Positions 12,155 through 20,147 of a stretch of DNA of 54,141 nucleotides are shown here, in pieces (the stretch's first letter is position 1; each line of letters starts with the position of its first letter). Below the pieces are notes generated by a model. The model searched no databases and had not been told where the DNA came from. It was given only the letters and a program-made list of their open reading frames with translations. A program made the translations under genes and the position numbers. The stretch is from Paraburkholderia sp. NMBU_R16 (GTDB taxonomy: Bacteria > Pseudomonadota > Gammaproteobacteria > Burkholderiales > Burkholderiaceae), in the NCBI RefSeq assembly GCF_013282575.1, contig NZ_JAAAYE010000041.1, positions 1 to 54,141 on the forward strand, read 5' to 3'.

Positions 12155-12418
12155 TTACTCAGATTGCCGCCTTTTCAAGGGTCGGCGGTCGAGAATCGTC
12201 CGCACCGCATACAGGCTCGACATTGCTGACGTTACCAATCCAGACAGAGTCTCGACCTCGCCTGGGGTGAACCCCAAGGGCGCCGCCCCGTCGTCCACTG
12301 ATCGGGCTGCCACTGCGCCATTCGACTTCCGGGCCTTGCCCGCCTTCTTTCGCGCCTCATTGCTTTCTCTCGTAGCATTAGACGCATCACGCTTCGTATA
12401 TTGATACTGCCTTTTCAC
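12155..12418 (-). CDS. Small unknown prophage protein
   Basis: 87 residues starting with GTG at 12418, with a strong AAGGAG five bases upstream on the minus strand. The N-terminal half is very rich in Lys, Arg, Asn and Ala (RKKAGKARKSNG). The C-terminal half could form a helix hairpin (FTPGEVETLSGLVTSAMSSL). No family recognised. It is convergent with the tail operon and divergent from the LysR-like gene, the position where P2-like phages carry accessory genes. The good ribosome site is the main support. Confidence 0.55.
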   Translation of the reverse strand: MKRQYQYTKRDASNATRESNEARKKAGKARKSNGAVAARSVDDGAAPLGFTPGEVETLSGLVTSAMSSLYAVRTILDRRPLKRRQSE

Positions 12419-12610
12419 TGCTTCTCCTTCTTACTGGGATCGCACTTCGCCCTCGTCAGGCAACCCGCATTAACGCAGATATGGCCGAAATTGGGAACGA
12501 AGGAAATAACCTTCCTCCCCGTAGGTTTGCCCCTAACAAAAATCGAGATGGCGGAGTGCAATAGGAATATTCCGAAACTTTGCTGTCGGGCGTGGGAAAA
12601 GGTGGTCGCA

Positions 12611-12985
12611 ATGGCTAGCAGGCCGAATCGGCTCAACTGGAATCTGTTACGGGCGTTCGCTGGGATCGCAGAGCATCGAACGCTGGCCGACGCTGCACGC
12701 GCTGCCGGCGTGCAGCGGCCGACAATCAGCGAAAAAGTTGCTGCGCTCGAGGCCGTGCTCGGCCTCCGGCTTATGGACAGACAACCCGGAAATGACAGGT
12801 TCCGGCTTACAGCGGACGGCAGGCGTTTGCGGCGCCTGCTGACCAACTTCAACAGCGAGCTCAGCGTGTTATGTGATCCGAGCGGCGAACACGCTCCCGA
12901 TGACGGGGCCACCCAGATTTTGCGAGATGTCGAGGAGGCACTGTCAGCCCTTGAGCGAGCGAAGAAGGCATTGACCCGCTCGTAG
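12611..12985 (+). CDS. Stand-alone LysR-type helix-turn-helix protein
   Basis: 124 residues from ATG at 12611, preceded by AAGGTGG; the frame is open further left but only this start gives a clean domain. Residues 8-70 are a LysR N-terminal DNA-binding domain (WNLLRAFAGIAEHRTLADAA, PTISEKVAALEAVLGLRLMDR, LTADGRRL). The effector-binding domain that normally adds 200 residues is missing; a short helical tail (VEEALSALERAKKALTRS) takes its place and could mediate dimerisation. It lies next to the phage repressor, pointing to a role in phage regulation. A GGAATATTCC palindrome at 12564-12573 is a possible operator. Confidence 0.75.
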   Translation: MASRPNRLNWNLLRAFAGIAEHRTLADAARAAGVQRPTISEKVAALEAVLGLRLMDRQPGNDRFRLTADGRRLRRLLTNFNSELSVLCDPSGEHAPDDGATQILRDVEEALSALERAKKALTRS

Positions 12986-15301: not shown

Positions 15302-18094
15302 ATGGCCACGATTGACGAACTAAAACGGCGCATCGACCTGCACGATCTCGCGGGCCGTCTCGGCCTCAAGCGCGGCCGAGGCGGCGATAAAGCGCTCTAT
15401 CACTCGCCGCATCACGAGGACGCCAGCCCCTCACTCTCGATTTATATCGACCACCCGAAGCATGGCACCGGTTGGCGCGATCACAGCGCGAACATCGGCG
15501 GCTCGTGCATCGACCTCGTGATATACGTGAACGGCGGCAGCGTCAGTGATGCCGTCCGCTACCTGCACGAAATCTACGGCATCCCATTCGACCAGCCGGC
15601 GTCGGCCGACCGTCGTGAGAAATCGACCGTCGAATACATCGCTGACCGATGTCTGTCGGAGCGCGAACGCGTACGCGAATACCTGCACGGCCGAGGGATA
15701 TCAGATGCGGCGATCAACGCAGCTGTTTCCGCGCGCACGCTGGGCTTCAACGCGTGGACAAGTCCTAAGATTGCTGCGGGCGATGTCGGCCACGGCGGGC
15801 CTGCTGCAGCGTTCATCGTGCACTCCCCCGCAGATGGCCGGGTCGTCGCGGTCGACATGCGGTACCTCGATCCCGCGCTCAATGGCGGAGTGAAAACGCA
15901 GACGCAAGGCGACAAGCTGGGAGTCTTTTGGACAGCGGACCCGCGCCGACTTCGGTCTGCTCGGCGCGTCTATGCGGTCGAAAGCGCTATTAATGCACTG
16001 TCGATCGATACCTGCGCCATGCCCGGCACGGCAGCGTTCGCGTTGCGCGGTGTCCAGAACGCCGAGCACATCGATTTGACGTTTCTGCGCGACAAGCACG
16101 TCTTCATTTGCCTGGACAACGACGAGCCTTTCCCCGAAGGTCACCCTCGCGCTGGCCAGCGACCCGGCCCCGAGGCCGAGTGGGCGCTTTACGAACGGCT
16201 CACGAGCCTCAATATCGCGGCCGTGCTCGTCGATCACACCGATTGGCTCGCCGACTTGGAGGACGGTGAGACGACGCAAAAGCCGATCAACGACGTCAAC
16301 GAATACTTGCAGTTACGTGGCGTAGCCCAGCTGGCAAGAGCGCTTGAGCACTATGAGCCGTGGCTGATTGCGGGCCTCCCTGGCGACGCATCGCGTCGCG
16401 GCCGACCTCGCATTTTCTTGCCGTCGCACGACTTCGCGCAGTACTGGCGCTTTCGCGTGCGGCCCGACTTTACAAGCCACATCACAAAGATGGAACGCAA
16501 CGACGAGGCTGGGACCGAGACACCGGTCATGGCGGATCTGTGTGGCTTCCGCATTGCTGCAATAAGTCGAGTGTCGGTCGCGAGCGCCACGTCTACGATG
16601 ACGGGCGACGCAGACCAAGCCCCAACTGTCTATTTCGCTGTCTCGGTGCAGGCGCCACGGCACGGCGCGCAATTGATCCGCCGTGTGATGCTCGATGACC
16701 AATTGCACAACCTCGATCAGTGGGCCAAGTTCGGGCCGATCTGGGCGCCGTCGCCGTTCAAGCGCATGGTCAATATCCTTGAGCGCGGCGCCGATCTCGG
16801 AGCGCGGCAGGCGGCCAATTTTGTTGGGCTCGCTTGGCGCGACGGCCGCATGATCGTCAACGAGGGGCCGGACTGCTATTTCACCGAAGCAGAAAAACAA
16901 TGCCCGTATCACAACCTGACCTTCCCGACCGGCCCCGTCAGTGCTGCGCGCCGCGTGATCACGGCCTACCAGGCCACCTTCAAACAGAACGCGGCGACCA
17001 TCCCACTGGTATGGGCGCTCGGGGGTCATTTGAAGGCGCTGCTGGGCTTCTGGCCGCACATGACCATCCAGGCGAACAAGGGCGCGGGGAAGTCGACCCT
17101 GATCAAGCGGCTTGAGCGCTCGCTCGCATTCACGATGTTTTCGGGTCAATCGCTGCAGACGGAGTTCCGACTGCTGACGAGCATCAGCCATACGAGTCAC
17201 CCGGTCGGATGGGAAGAGCTTTCCGCGCGGCGGCAGGACGTAATCGACAAAGCGGTCGGGCTGCTGCAGGAGAACTACCAGTACACGGTGACTCGCCGAG
17301 GCACCGACATGACCGAATACCTGCTGTGCGCGCCCGTCATGCTGGCCGGTGAAGACGTACCAGTGCGCAGCCTGCTCGGCAAACTCGTGCGCACCACGTT
17401 AACCGGCAAGCGAGGCCCGCTGCTGCCCGACGATTTGCCGCGCTTCCCCGTTCGGCGGTGGCTCGAATTCCTCGCCGACCTGGATAAGCGCGCCGTGCTG
17501 GACCAGTACGCGACCCTCAACGCGAACGCGCTTGGAAACTGCCGCGCGAGCGGTGCGGACGATGGCGCAAAGCGCATGGCGGGCAACTACGCTGCCGTCG
17601 CGCTCGCGTGGCGCTACCTCTGTGAGTTCGCCGGCATGGACCCAAGCGAAGGCGACTTTCCACGTGATCTGCTGGCCGAAATGAACGGCCACATCGCCGA
17701 AACGAGCGCCGATCGCGAGCCGTGGGTTTGGATCATGGAAACAGTGTTGTCGGAGATCGACGGCGGCAACTACAAGCACCCGTACACGTTCGATACCGTC
17801 GACGGCGAGTTCTCCCTCCTGCTTCGCACAGGTCACGTAATGGACCACCTCGCGCATACGAGCGCGCTGCGTGACAAGTGGAACGCTCTGCCAGTCAAAT
17901 CCGACCGCATCTTCAAGAGCCAGCTCAAGCATGCCAGCGTCATCGTGGGCGAGAAGGAAGTCGAGCGGCGCATTTTCAGCCGCCGTGTGCCATACCTCAC
18001 GCCCATCTCACTGCAGCGGCTCGCCGCGTTCGGGCTGCACGTCGCGGTGCGCGACGACCTGGTTACCGATGCGCTCCAGGGAGGCCACGCATGA
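15302..18094 (+). CDS. Phage replication protein: primase-like toprim domain plus P-loop ATPase
   Basis: 930 residues. Residues about 1-100 resemble a DnaG-type zinc domain in degenerate form (YHSPHHEDASPSLSIY, GGSC69). A toprim-like domain follows at about 220-310, with E227 (YAVES) and D272/D274 (ICLDND) as the metal-binding acids. A Walker A P-loop stands at 591-599 (ANKGAGKST, K597) in a helicase-like ATPase region. The arrangement recalls P4 alpha-type primase-helicases. No P2-type gpA rolling-circle initiator is seen in the window. An iteron-like array follows within 220 bases, so I infer that this protein recognises that origin and starts phage replication. Domain limits are approximate. 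Confidence 0.8.
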   Translation: MATIDELKRRIDLHDLAGRLGLKRGRGGDKALYHSPHHEDASPSLSIYIDHPKHGTGWRDHSANIGGSCIDLVIYVNGGSVSDAVRYLHEIYGIPFDQPASADRREKSTVEYIADRCLSERERVREYLHGRGISDAAINAAVSARTLGFNAWTSPKIAAGDVGHGGPAAAFIVHSPADGRVVAVDMRYLDPALNGGVKTQTQGDKLGVFWTADPRRLRSARRVYAVESAINALSIDTCAMPGTAAFALRGVQNAEHIDLTFLRDKHVFICLDNDEPFPEGHPRAGQRPGPEAEWALYERLTSLNIAAVLVDHTDWLADLEDGETTQKPINDVNEYLQLRGVAQLARALEHYEPWLIAGLPGDASRRGRPRIFLPSHDFAQYWRFRVRPDFTSHITKMERNDEAGTETPVMADLCGFRIAAISRVSVASATSTMTGDADQAPTVYFAVSVQAPRHGAQLIRRVMLDDQLHNLDQWAKFGPIWAPSPFKRMVNILERGADLGARQAANFVGLAWRDGRMIVNEGPDCYFTEAEKQCPYHNLTFPTGPVSAARRVITAYQATFKQNAATIPLVWALGGHLKALLGFWPHMTIQANKGAGKSTLIKRLERSLAFTMFSGQSLQTEFRLLTSISHTSHPVGWEELSARRQDVIDKAVGLLQENYQYTVTRRGTDMTEYLLCAPVMLAGEDVPVRSLLGKLVRTTLTGKRGPLLPDDLPRFPVRRWLEFLADLDKRAVLDQYATLNANALGNCRASGADDGAKRMAGNYAAVALAWRYLCEFAGMDPSEGDFPRDLLAEMNGHIAETSADREPWVWIMETVLSEIDGGNYKHPYTFDTVDGEFSLLLRTGHVMDHLAHTSALRDKWNALPVKSDRIFKSQLKHASVIVGEKEVERRIFSRRVPYLTPISLQRLAAFGLHVAVRDDLVTDALQGGHA

Positions 18095-18558
18095 CGCCAG
18101 CTCAACCTGTGCGCCGGCCCTGCCATCTCGACGCGAGCGCCATCTGGAAGCGCCAACCGCCCGCGAGACGAAACGGCCCGGAAACGACCGGAGCCGCCTG
18201 GCGGCACGGCCGCACTAGCCCAATTTTTTGCGGGGAAGGGGCAAGCAGCGCAAATAACCCGTGGTTTTCCCGTGCGCTCGCTCGTAAGTCATTGATTGTT
18301 GAGAGGACTAGCGCCACGAGTCACCGTGCGTTTGCCATCAATCACGAGTTTTTCGCCATGAGTCTGCTTTTTGCGTCGGGCGCTGCCACCTCCCTATCTC
18401 TTCTCCCTATTTCATTGAAAAAGAAGAAGAAAGAAAACGAGGAAGGTAGAGGGATCTGCGGAAAAGCAATGCCACGAGTCAGGGCTGTTTTGCCATTAGT
18501 TGTGGGCGCTGCACATTTTTTGGGCCACGAGTCTTCTGACGCTGCCACGAATGAATGA
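18091..18558 (+). CDS. Doubtful ORF across the iteron region
   Basis: 155 codons from an ATGA overlap with the replication gene. The first 40-50 residues (MTPAQPVRRPCHLDASAIWK...) could be a genuine coupled small protein. The rest translates the iterons and a purine-rich stretch (ISLKKKKKENEEGRG) and looks non-coding. I list it because the coupled start is suggestive. A shorter ancestral gene that lost its stop is one explanation; chance is another. Confidence 0.25.
   Translation: MTPAQPVRRPCHLDASAIWKRQPPARRNGPETTGAAWRHGRTSPIFCGEGASSANNPWFSRALARKSLIVERTSATSHRAFAINHEFFAMSLLFASGAATSLSLLPISLKKKKKENEEGRGICGKAMPRVRAVLPLVVGAAHFLGHESSDAATNE
18313..18554. repeat. Iteron-like direct repeats, candidate prophage replication origin
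   Basis: Seven copies of an 11-bp repeat, consensus GCCA(C/T)GAGTC(A/T), all in the same direction. They start at 18313, 18334, 18355, 18471, 18492, 18524 and 18544. The first, fourth and sixth are GCCACGAGTC exactly; the others differ at one to three positions. Start-to-start spacing is 21, 21, then 21, 32 and 20 bases, about two helical turns. The two clusters flank an AT- and purine-rich segment (about 18400-18450) that could unwind. The array lies directly downstream of the replication gene. I see no confident gene between 18095 and 18567. Confidence 0.7.
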
Positions 18559-18567
18559 TGGCAAGTG

Positions 18568-19017
18568 ATGACACATAGAATCTTTAAAAATCAGGATGTT
18601 ATTGACGTGCCTCACGCAAACCATCATTCCACTATTTGCGCTACGTGTGCCTCTACCGCAACGTGCGGTGAAACCCCGCGCCTGAACACGGTCGACTTGA
18701 TCGGAGCCGCGGAGATGCTCGGCGCACACCCTGAAACCGTGCGATTGAAAGCGAAGGCCGGCGAGCTACCCGGCCGGAAAGTTGGCAAGCGCTGGATGTT
18801 TTCAACGGTTGCCCTACAGCGCTACCTCGCCGGAGAATGGAGCCCGCGAGTTGTGCAGGGCGATCAGCAGGAGGAAGTTAAACAATGTCGCTCTATAAAC
18901 GCACCAACAGCCCCAACTGGTATTACCGGCTCACTCCACCCGGCGGCGGTCCGATCGTACAAGGCAGCACTGGCACCAGCAACAAAACCCAGGCCAAAGA
19001 GTTCTACGATCGGCTAA
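18568..19017 (+). CDS. Excisionase/AlpA-like helix-turn-helix protein
   Basis: 149 codons from ATG at 18568 (a GTG at 18565 is also in frame). Residues about 40-92 (LNTVDLIGAAEMLGAHPETV, RLKAKAGELPGRKVGKRWMF, STVALQRYLAGEW) form a MerR/excisionase-type winged HTH (HTH_17). The N-terminus has a C-x2-C and further cysteines (ICATCASTATC). The last 44 codons overlap the start of the integrase in another frame and are rich in Ala/Pro/Ser, so the functional protein may effectively end near 18880. Next to the integrase it probably directs recombination toward excision. Confidence 0.7.
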   Translation: MTHRIFKNQDVIDVPHANHHSTICATCASTATCGETPRLNTVDLIGAAEMLGAHPETVRLKAKAGELPGRKVGKRWMFSTVALQRYLAGEWSPRVVQGDQQEEVKQCRSINAPTAPTGITGSLHPAAVRSYKAALAPATKPRPKSSTIG

Positions 19018-20012
19018 AAGTCGAACTGTGGAACCAAACAAAGCTCGGCCACAAGCCGCGTTACACCTGGAACGACGCGGTTGTTCGGTATACGGGCGAC
19101 CGCGAGGAGCTGTCGAGTTTGGAAACGTCGAAGATTCACCTCCGCTGGCTGGATCAACACCTACGGGACCTCCCGTTGGCGGAGATCGATCGCGACCGCG
19201 TGGATGCCATCGCCCGCGCGAAACGCGCGGAACCGCGTGTCGTGCGGACGCGCCGCGGACCGAAGCCGATCGGTGGCACCGTCAGCGAAGGCACGGTAAG
19301 GAGAGTCCTCGGTGTGCTTATGGCGGTGCTGCATGCTGCAGTCGAATGGGAGTGGCTTGACCGAGCGCCGGTCCTGACGAGACGGAAAACGACACCAAAG
19401 CGAGTTCGGTGGATCACGACGGCACAGGCCGAACGGTTGCTGGGCCAGTTGCCTGGCCACCTCGCGGAGATGGCGCGTTTCAGTCTTGAGACAGGACTGC
19501 GCCGATCGAATGTCACCGGCTTGCAATGGTCGCAAGTCGACCTATCTCGACGCGTCGCCTGGATCCACCCGGACCAAGCCAAGGCGCGCAAGGCAATCAC
19601 CGTACCGCTGTCGGAGACGGCCGTCGAGGTGCTGCGTCGGCAATTGGGAAAACAACGAAAAGCGGAGCATGTCGAAATGGTGTTCGTCTACCGTGGCACG
19701 GCAGTTGGACAAGCCAATACGGCCGCGTGGCGAAAGGCGTTGAAGCGGGCGGGCATCCGAGATTTCCGGTGGCACGACCTGAGACACACCTGGGCGAGTT
19801 GGCACGTGCAGCGAGGCACGCCTTTGCAGGTGCTGAAAGAACTCGGCGGGTGGGAAACGCTTGAAATGGTGCAGCGCTACGCGCACCTTTCGGCGGACCA
19901 CTTGGCTCAGTGGGTACAGCCACACCTGCAAGTTTCCGAGTCTCCCGTGCTACCAACCGCAACGTCGCCGGGAGCAGCAGAAGCGCCGATGGTCGCCGTC
20001 GCCGCACTGTAA
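18885..20012 (+). CDS. int: Site-specific tyrosine recombinase (phage integrase)
   Basis: 375 residues with AGGAGG 10 bases upstream of ATG. There is an N-terminal arm-binding region (LYKRTNSPNWYYRL), a SAM-like core-binding domain (about 60-160) and a catalytic domain (about 175-340). Catalytic residues visible are R206 in TGLRRSN, a lysine near 233-236, H297 and R300 in WHDLRHTW, W323 in the GGW position often held by His, and nucleophile Y332 in RYAHLS. It integrates and excises the prophage at the tRNA-Arg gene that begins 60 bases downstream. The C-terminal 30 residues are an unstructured Ala/Pro tail. The frame is intact. Confidence 0.95.
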   Translation: MSLYKRTNSPNWYYRLTPPGGGPIVQGSTGTSNKTQAKEFYDRLKVELWNQTKLGHKPRYTWNDAVVRYTGDREELSSLETSKIHLRWLDQHLRDLPLAEIDRDRVDAIARAKRAEPRVVRTRRGPKPIGGTVSEGTVRRVLGVLMAVLHAAVEWEWLDRAPVLTRRKTTPKRVRWITTAQAERLLGQLPGHLAEMARFSLETGLRRSNVTGLQWSQVDLSRRVAWIHPDQAKARKAITVPLSETAVEVLRRQLGKQRKAEHVEMVFVYRGTAVGQANTAAWRKALKRAGIRDFRWHDLRHTWASWHVQRGTPLQVLKELGGWETLEMVQRYAHLSADHLAQWVQPHLQVSESPVLPTATSPGAAEAPMVAVAAL

Positions 20013-20071
20013 TTTCACTGTAGAGGGAGAAAACGATGAAGTAGCGAAATCGCCGAAAGCCTTGTCAGCTA

Positions 20072-20115
20072 TGGCGCGCCCGGCTGGGATCGAACCAGCA
20101 ACCCCTGCCTTCGGA
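20072..20115. other. Predicted prophage attachment site in the 3' half of tRNA-Arg
   Basis: The prophage border must lie where the integrase-side DNA meets the intact tRNA. tRNA-targeting integrases usually cross over in the T-arm or anticodon-arm half, here about 20072-20115, leaving the gene whole. The exact core cannot be fixed because the second copy lies outside the window. Confidence 0.4.
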
Positions 20116-20147
20116 GGGCAGTACTCTATCCATTGAGCTACGGGCGC
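20072..20147 (-). tRNA. tRNA-Arg (anticodon CCG), CCA encoded
   Basis: Complete cloverleaf on the minus strand. Acceptor GCGCCCG/CGGGCGC, D-stem GCTC/GAGT, anticodon stem CTGCC/GGCAG with loop CTCCGAA (anticodon CCG, reads CGG), T-arm GCTGG-TTCGATC-CCAGC, discriminator G and encoded CCA: 76 bases in all. It is the attachment target of the neighbouring prophage and its 3' end faces the integrase. The gene reads as intact, so the prophage restored the sequence. Confidence 0.97.

Follow-up and report, generated by a model that had tools for sequence, protein, structure and literature searches.

We propose that a repeat array in Paraburkholderia sp. NMBU_R16 is the replication origin of a P2-like prophage and that the product of the adjacent gene, a 930-amino-acid primase-helicase, is its initiator, a reading to which we assign a probability of about 0.87 from sequence comparison. 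The array lies in a 54,141-nucleotide stretch of contig NZ_JAAAYE010000041.1 (the whole of which is referred to here as the window), comprises 12 copies of a ~10-bp unit (nine direct and three inverted, at 18256-18637), and spans the region 0.16 to 0.54 kb downstream of the primase-helicase gene. The data directly support the array itself and the conservation of its geometry, show that it co-varies with one protein domain and is independent of the integrase module, and give, by fold, the domain make-up of the protein. A sequence-only reading of the window had named this place as a candidate origin, and that claim is now well supported, the support being comparative throughout: the array is kept among relatives, its repeats co-vary with a protein domain, and the genome yields no match to gpA, the initiator of P2. 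On the best reading, this is an iteron origin of the initiator-helicase kind, nearest to SaPIbov1/phage-inducible chromosomal island (PICI) replicons and residing in P2-like phages.

The repeat array and its neighboring primase-helicase

Seven same-direction copies of GCCA(C/T)GAGTC(A/T), spaced mainly 20 to 21 bp apart with one interval of 32 bp, had been read from the sequence. All seven direct sites are present and the spacing is as described (starts at 18313, 18334, 18355, 18471, 18492, 18524, and 18544, giving gaps of 21, 21, 116, 21, 32, and 20 bp), but only four match the motif exactly, the other three being degenerate, and the array is larger than this count. Comparison with relatives adds five copies (18256-18265, 18553-18562, and 18563-18572, all inverted, as well as 18620-18629 and 18628-18637). 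The copies follow an offset pattern of 0, 21, and 42, then 158, 179, and 211, and the first inverted and first direct copies start 162 bp and 219 bp, respectively, past the last base of the primase-helicase gene. The elements of the proposed origin are as follows.

18256..18265, minus strand: repeat copy 1, inverted (ACCACGGGTT)
18313..18322, plus strand: repeat copy 2 (GCCACGAGTC)
18334..18343, plus strand: repeat copy 3 (GCCATCAATC)
18355..18364, plus strand: repeat copy 4 (GCCATGAGTC)
18408..18437: AT-rich segment with purine run 18417-18437, proposed unwinding element (80% AT over 30 bp; column conservation)
18471..18480, plus strand: repeat copy 5 (GCCACGAGTC)
18492..18501, plus strand: repeat copy 6 (GCCATTAGTT)
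18524..18533, plus strand: repeat copy 7 (GCCACGAGTC)
18544..18553, plus strand: repeat copy 8 (GCCACGAATG)
18553..18562, minus strand: repeat copy 9, inverted (GCCATCATTC)
18563..18572, minus strand: repeat copy 10, inverted (GTCATCACTT)
18620..18629, plus strand: repeat copy 11 (ACCATCATTC), overlapping copy 12
18628..18637, plus strand: repeat copy 12 (TCCACTATTT)

The purine- and AT-rich stretch that had been noticed between the two clusters is likewise there: the AT-rich segment stands in a window of 63% GC, only 8 sliding 30-bp windows of the 54 kb reach 80% AT, and 18417-18437 is the window's sole purine run of at least 18 bases. The features of an iteron origin are thus assembled at one place, namely, direct repeats at multiples of the helical turn (21 and 32 bp), an AT-rich segment, and a neighboring gene of the initiator type.

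Counting the motif alone gives no significance (7 matches with at most one mismatch in 54 kb against 3.72 expected, with as many in 6 of 100 shuffles), and we therefore used a motif-free test of geometry, which scores the mutual similarity of 10-mers at offsets 0, 21, 42, 42+g, 63+g, and 95+g, with g ranging from 95 to 135. The score is 122 at 18313, as against 91 for the runner-up among independent places in the 54 kb and a maximum of 88 over 40 whole-window shuffles, all 40 of which the array exceeds.

The gene beside the array, described earlier as a toprim replication gene, is confirmed as such by its matches to Toprim_3 and to PHROG 5629 (“DNA primase”), of which it is the sole match in the genome. 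Its relevant parts are the following.

15302..18094, plus strand: 930-amino-acid primase-helicase, proposed initiator (Toprim_3, 7.6e-14; PHROG 5629 over the full length; structure model with a predicted local distance difference test [pLDDT] score of 83; fold matches to 2au3, 5dgk, and 8tch)
17708..18037, plus strand: C-terminal winged-helix domain (codons 803-912), proposed reader of the repeats
17960..18010, plus strand: beta-wing holding residues 890, 897, and 898 (codons 887-903; DSSP on the model, mutual information)

Judging from the modeled fold, the protein appears to consist of a DnaG-type primase part (zinc and TOPRIM), an MCM-like helicase part, and a C-terminal winged helix, which would make it a DnaG-type primase joined to a helicase of the SaPIbov1-Rep/Cch type. 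A profile search of PDB sequences with the protein family (E value up to 1) returned only 2au3 and 1d0q, both DnaG primases, with no sequence-level similarity to Cch or SaPI Rep, and a single-protein sequence search against PDB chains gave no match.

Conservation of the array in related phages

Loci encoding relatives of the protein were drawn from a phage collection (20 records with the protein), a genome collection (56 more), and a viral collection (80 more, the best 80 of 174). The phage collection includes relatives that are ~85% identical (KS5, KL3, Carl1, Mana, Momento, Menos, Milagro, Musica, and AP3) and others that are ~66% identical (KS14, FLC5, and FLC10). The window's own prophage (L070) was omitted everywhere, and L052, L062, and L064, which are without the 3' end of the gene, were left off the locus table. 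Several loci duplicate one another across collections (e.g., L004 and L085), so that locus counts are not counts of independent phages. An array was called when the geometry score exceeded 105 within 1 kb of the gene stop, a cut that was chosen by eye and holds only within that 1 kb, since GC-rich DNA well upstream in L016 reached 110.

By this measure, the array geometry is present in 109 of 146 loci, representing 99 distinct array regions, and the gap between clusters is nearly invariant over these loci (116 bp in 102, 114 bp in 4, and 115 bp in 3). Array-bearing organisms, where named, include Burkholderia, Trinickia, Paraburkholderia, Caballeronia, Pandoraea, Ralstonia, Duganella, Herminiimonas, and Methylobacillus. 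Nine further loci carry the array in altered form or further downstream; a de novo repeat search finds clear arrays of slightly different layout in L037, L038, and L047, and in L036, L041, L060, L065, L147, and L148 the array lies 2 to 4 kb downstream, the first letters of its unit being partly set by the pattern. By geometry, L041 and L033 are weak (91 and 92) and L020 and L098 fall just below the cut (101), and in L049, L072, L077, and L110 there is less than 500 bp of downstream DNA. Loss of the array from close relatives that keep the gene, a finding that would have told against an origin, was not seen at or above ~79% identity, where only five loci fail to reach the cut: L020 and L098, which narrowly miss it, and L072, L077, and L110, in which the contig stops less than 400 bp further on.

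Over 97 loci, mean column conservation is 0.819 in the repeats (117 columns), 0.895 in the AT-rich segment, and 0.709 in the spacers (237 columns). A PHROG scan of ten open reading frames (ORFs) from three distant loci matched a P2-type portal family in L060 and integrases in L047 and gave nothing for the three ORFs of L147, and we therefore do not claim the array beyond P2-like phages. In KL3 and AP3, the cumulative minimum of GC skew falls 0.7 and 1.7 kb, respectively, from the array, but no conclusion is drawn from this because the ends of both records fall there too and gene orientation is a confounder.

Published genomes carry ORFs annotated across the array (L009:7790-8401, which is AP3 gp50; L004:7790-8476, which is Mana gp46; L007:7793-8479; and L008:7793-8479), with labels that include “putative baseplate J family protein,” “membrane protein,” and hypothetical. 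One forward frame is open over the whole array in 43 of the 109 array loci and two are open in 2; because the remaining 64 have no fully open forward frame, such annotations are probably artefacts, as the reading of the array as an origin also suggests for those in AP3 and Mana.

Co-variation of the repeats with the C-terminal domain

Co-variation of the repeats with the protein, which had been suggested as a check, is seen at repeat bases 1, 4, and 7, which track residues of the C-terminal winged helix among relatives. Repeat bases vary between lineages and agree among the copies within one phage. Four types of repeat start occur among the 109 array loci (GCCA in 80, GCCC in 18, TCCA in 10, and CCCA in 1, L046), the first two differing at base 4 (A4 and C4). 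Partial proteins and those of L026, L066, and L116, whose genes have in-frame stops, were excluded from protein alignments, leaving 106 of the 109 array loci and 96 distinct proteins; the DNA of these loci was kept in the origin-region separation comparison, in whose score gaps were ignored. L134, reported below as an exception, was excluded from the separation tests of the gene, origin region, and neighboring ORFs and from the restricted codon test.

Across ~460 bp of the origin region, 24 sites separate 79 GCCA from 18 GCCC loci at 0.8 or more and 13 do so at 0.99 or more. Twelve of these 13 near-fixed differences are base 4 of a repeat copy, changing from A to C (T to G in inverted copies), and the 13th is position 18585; it is from the near-fixed base-4 sites that the nine direct and three inverted copies were mapped. 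Across the whole gene (77 GCCA versus 17 GCCC proteins), separation of at least 0.8 is confined to codons 815, 819, 821, 842, 881, and 897, all six of which change the amino acid (V815A, I819M, G821C, R842N, P897R, and mostly I881), and no synonymous site separates at 0.85 or more, whereas six amino acid changes do. Copy by copy, Asn842 occurs with C at base 4 in 102 of 108 cases and Arg842 with A in 501 of 528.

The other two bases behave similarly. Base 1 tracks residue 890, the best of the 930 columns for this base by mutual information, in 106 of 106 loci (Arg with G in 95, Thr with T in 10, and Gln with C in 1), and G stands at base 7 in at least four of six copies in 11 of 12 His898 loci but in none of 94 Tyr898 loci. 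Distant arrays outside the base-1 count agree where they can be read, pairing Thr890 with T at base 1 (L036, L038, L047, L060, L147, and L148, and likewise the weaker L033 and L041), and His898 accompanies GGG in L038, L047, and L060.

On a tree built from residues 1-800, with the trait columns left out, 12 changes are required for the base-4 type and 13 for residue 842. Among independent pairs on supported branches, base 4 and residue 842 agree in five of five, and base 7 and residue 898 in 2.9 of 3 on average. The number of changes and the concordance of these pairs imply that the domain and the array have moved together repeatedly, and the lack of a synonymous marker as sharp as the amino acid changes argues for selection on the domain-array pair.

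Physical linkage could in principle produce such a link if the domain and the array were exchanged as one recombination block, an explanation that would weaken the case for the reader protein but leave the origin role untouched, and that we consider improbable as the sole cause. The marker codons of the domain lie only 0.3 to 0.9 kb from the array, and C4 types are scattered on the residues 1-800 tree, so this stretch has clearly been exchanged. Apart from base 4, A4 and C4 types are told apart at 0.81 to 0.94 by eleven origin-region sites, most of them in spacers (and fully by 18585), and mean separation within the gene peaks in codons 901-930 (0.211), where no single site reaches 0.8; linkage therefore has a share in the signal. 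In the set restricted to Arg890 (94 loci), third positions of codons 819, 840, and 841 also track base 4 (0.89, 0.43, and 0.43), that of codon 819 being the Ile-to-Met change itself. Set against linkage are the contrast between synonymous and amino acid changes in the gene, the concentration of near-fixed differences on repeat base 4, and the recurrence of the base 7/His898 pairing in both Ralstonia and Burkholderia.

The partly separating spacer sites and the signal in codons 901-930 count against our interpretation, as do several other observations. Arg842 is paired with C at base 4 in L148 and probably in L041, L036 has Asn898 with G at base 7, five Tyr898 loci show G at base 7 in three of six copies, and L134, whose gene is without its first 32 residues and whose nearest relative is L100, is the only mixed pair seen, with a C4-type C terminus beside an A4-type array. 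Because base 1 and residue 890 have changed on only a few branches, much of their association could be due to shared descent, and the tree tests cannot reach significance because each has fewer than six independent pairs. The helicase part of the protein is matched by fold only, at ~10% identity. No array is seen in 21 of the 146 loci, which include KS14, FLC5, FLC10, and yong1; in KS14, FLC5, and FLC10 the protein is ~66% identical yet no array is recognizable, a de novo repeat search gave no convincing candidate in the KS14 group, in yong1, or in many of the gammaproteobacterial loci, and the predicted TCC(A/C)CN(G/A)G unit, when sought in KS14, FLC5, and FLC10, formed no cluster.

As to these array-less loci, KS14 (L012), FLC5 (L010), and FLC10 (L011) are ParA-bearing, with no integrase annotated in the stretches examined, and KS14 has a RepB-like initiator and lysogenizes as a plasmid (PMC3091744; statements on this and the other cited papers refer to parts of their text). 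Other regular repeat sets, alternating in orientation at a spacing of ~100 to 110 bp, occur past the primase stop in L045 (at ~2.7 to 3.0 kb) and L048 (at ~2.0 to 2.2 kb), and neither locus has an array of the present type.

Prophage setting and comparison with known replication systems

Leftward of the primase-helicase gene lie a repressor and P2-type tail genes, and rightward of the array lie the following features, with a tRNA-Arg gene at 20072-20147.

18565..19017, plus strand: excisionase-like HTH_17 ORF as listed (HTH_17, 5.5e-9 at residues 48-89), a replaceable neighbor outside the origin
18885..20012, plus strand: tyrosine integrase (PF00589, 4.5e-35), a replaceable neighbor outside the origin
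20071..20110: core of the attachment site, at the tRNA-Arg 3' end (20072-20147, minus strand), with its second copy on contig C100 at the opposite end of the prophage

The start of the excisionase ORF is probably further downstream, because its initial listed codons run through array DNA. The attachment core consists of 40 identical bases, at 20071-20110 and at G000:C100:1594-1633; contig C100 carries terminase and portal genes, and it and the window most likely carry the two ends of one prophage, which is split over at least two contigs.

These neighbors raise the question of a control site for integration or excision, with the repeats serving as arm-type or Xis-binding sites or as an operator of xis and int, which we regard as very unlikely. 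The array does lie directly upstream of both genes, its last copies are inside the listed xis ORF, and ten columns of that ORF separate A4 from C4 types at 0.9 or more; nine of the ten, however, are in codons 1-34, ahead of the helix-turn-helix (residues 48-89), with the tenth (codon 46) adjoining it, and two are base 4 of repeat copies read as codons. In the integrase, two columns reach 0.8 and none reaches 0.9. The upstream ORF of 85 amino acids (37 A4 and 14 C4 proteins) has no column above 0.69, and only one C4 protein could be aligned for the ORF of 93 amino acids. Moreover, integrase/excisionase modules are swapped among relatives while the array stays: xis of the window's type is absent from 35 of 106 array loci and int from 31 of 106 (30 and 26 when counting loci with at least 1.9 kb past the gene, including five C4 loci each). 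The attachment core is ~1.4 kb from the array, at tRNA-Arg, and the repeats do not flank it as arm sites would.

Plasmid iterons also act in copy control, and the array might accordingly serve in partition, incompatibility, or copy control, as a binding site for the primase-helicase or for some other early protein, while replication actually starts elsewhere. We give this still less credence: ParA is annotated in the array-less KS14, FLC5, and FLC10 but not in the annotated stretches of nine array phages or anywhere in the KL3 and AP3 records, and an AT-rich segment between two repeat sets, beside the gene for a helicase of the self-loading type, fits an origin better. Least probable of all is an oriC-like cluster of degenerate DnaA boxes read by the host, since, although TCCACGGG or TCCACAGG units in several lineages resemble the DnaA box, its consensus TTWTNCACA occurs nowhere in the window, and whole arrays switch base 4 along with the phage protein while the named hosts remain Burkholderia (C4 in L022, L023, L054, AP3, and Momento; A4 in many).

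For the array as an origin served by the primase-helicase, three known systems offer comparisons, as follows.

(i) The SaPIbov1/PICI replicon is nearest in protein fold and in origin layout (rep gene, then ori). SaPIbov1 Rep/Cch has an MCM-like initiator helicase fold, which the 930-amino-acid protein appears from its model to share, together with a C-terminal winged-helix origin-binding domain, and this family reads downstream iterons through that winged helix; in both systems, two iteron sets flank an AT-rich region directly 3' of the initiator gene. The systems differ in that SaPIbov1 and SaPI5 primases belong to the AEP family (PMC7581432), whereas a DnaG-type TOPRIM primase is fused on here, and in that the present array has 12 copies, three inverted, in a fixed 21/32/116-bp layout. 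PICIs are satellites without virion genes of their own; here, the carriers include the complete P2-like phages KL3 and AP3, and the prophage itself has tail genes in the window and terminase and portal genes at its other end. Cch2 of staphylococcal cassette chromosome (SCC) elements is associated with three 5-nucleotide iterons, a D5-type helicase, and a separate polymerase-type primase (PMC7581432), unlike the single primase-helicase found here.

(ii) The arrangement had also been called P4-style, which is right in a loose sense: P4 alpha joins a TOPRIM-type primase to a helicase (Toprim_3 at 1.2e-12, compared with 7.6e-14 here), and short repeats (crr) adjoin its gene. The likeness does not extend to the helicase domains or to the two-site layout. 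P4 alpha has D5_N, DUF5906, and Pox_D5 domains, none of which is listed for the 930-amino-acid protein at E values up to 1, and BLASTP finds no significant similarity between the two proteins (best E value of 0.62). P4 uses two separated sites (ori and crr) with 8-bp repeats, whereas KL3 and AP3 have one cluster each besides isolated weaker matches, a result that a second site with another kind of repeat would escape.

(iii) P2 has virion and tail genes of the same kind as this prophage, but its rolling-circle origin depends on gpA. A gpA-type initiator elsewhere in the prophage, which would have undercut the proposal, was not found: Phage_GPA (PF05840) has no match at an E value of 0.001 in the 6.28-Mb, 562-contig genome, in a search to which 2 of 14 control genomes, E. 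coli included, responded. Similarly, KS5, KS14, and KL3 list no P2 A homologue, and the word “iteron” was not found in the text covered (PMC3091744). Burkholderia subgroup A phages encode primases and those of subgroup B encode gpA-like proteins (PMC2920897). The paper on phage Smhb1 describes the gpA nick site as conserved in the Peduovirinae (PMC8537503), a pattern from which the present phage group departs.

We envisage that the C-terminal winged helix, mainly through its beta-wing, binds the ~10-bp repeats, and that the placement of copies two to three helical turns apart (21 or 32 bp) would allow the protein to assemble on both sides of the AT/purine-rich segment. This segment (18408-18437) would then open, the MCM-like helicase part would load and unwind the DNA, and the DnaG-type primase part of the same protein would lay primers, from which the host polymerase would copy DNA from the excised circle. 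The array and the 930-amino-acid protein would in this way replace the gpA system of P2. Both the binding of the repeats by the primase-helicase and replication from the array are inferred from sequence, and a binding mode shared with TcpK of plasmid pCW3, a transfer-origin protein and not an initiator, is suggested by the co-variation only.

In the parts of the AP3, RSY1, RsoM1USA, and Mana papers that were covered, no replication origin is named. A search of open-access literature on iterons, P2-like phages, and Burkholderia led to a single paper, whose iteron passage concerns a plasmid-like island, and one on iterons with prophage and primase returned nothing. If correct, our reading would give a precise origin to KS5, KL3, AP3, Mana, and their kin, for which none is described in the literature covered, and the occurrence of a PICI-like layout in phages that are complete and P2-like would connect satellites with phages of the helper type. 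A broader claim, on which we are evenly divided, is that an origin type reported until now for phage-inducible satellites operates in a widespread group of P2-like phages, that a self-contained primase-helicase reads the iterons with a beta-wing in which individual residues follow individual bases (890 for base 1; 898 for base 7; 842, 819, 821, and 897 for base 4), and that the domain and all twelve copies switch together repeatedly on mixed backbones, yielding mutually exclusive replicon specificities within one phage population. Natural protein-array pairs that differ at one base per repeat make such a recognition code directly testable.

Elsewhere in the prophage, a 194-amino-acid ORF with a LysR-type HTH_1 domain lies at 12401-12985 of the window, between tail gene D and the prophage repressor.
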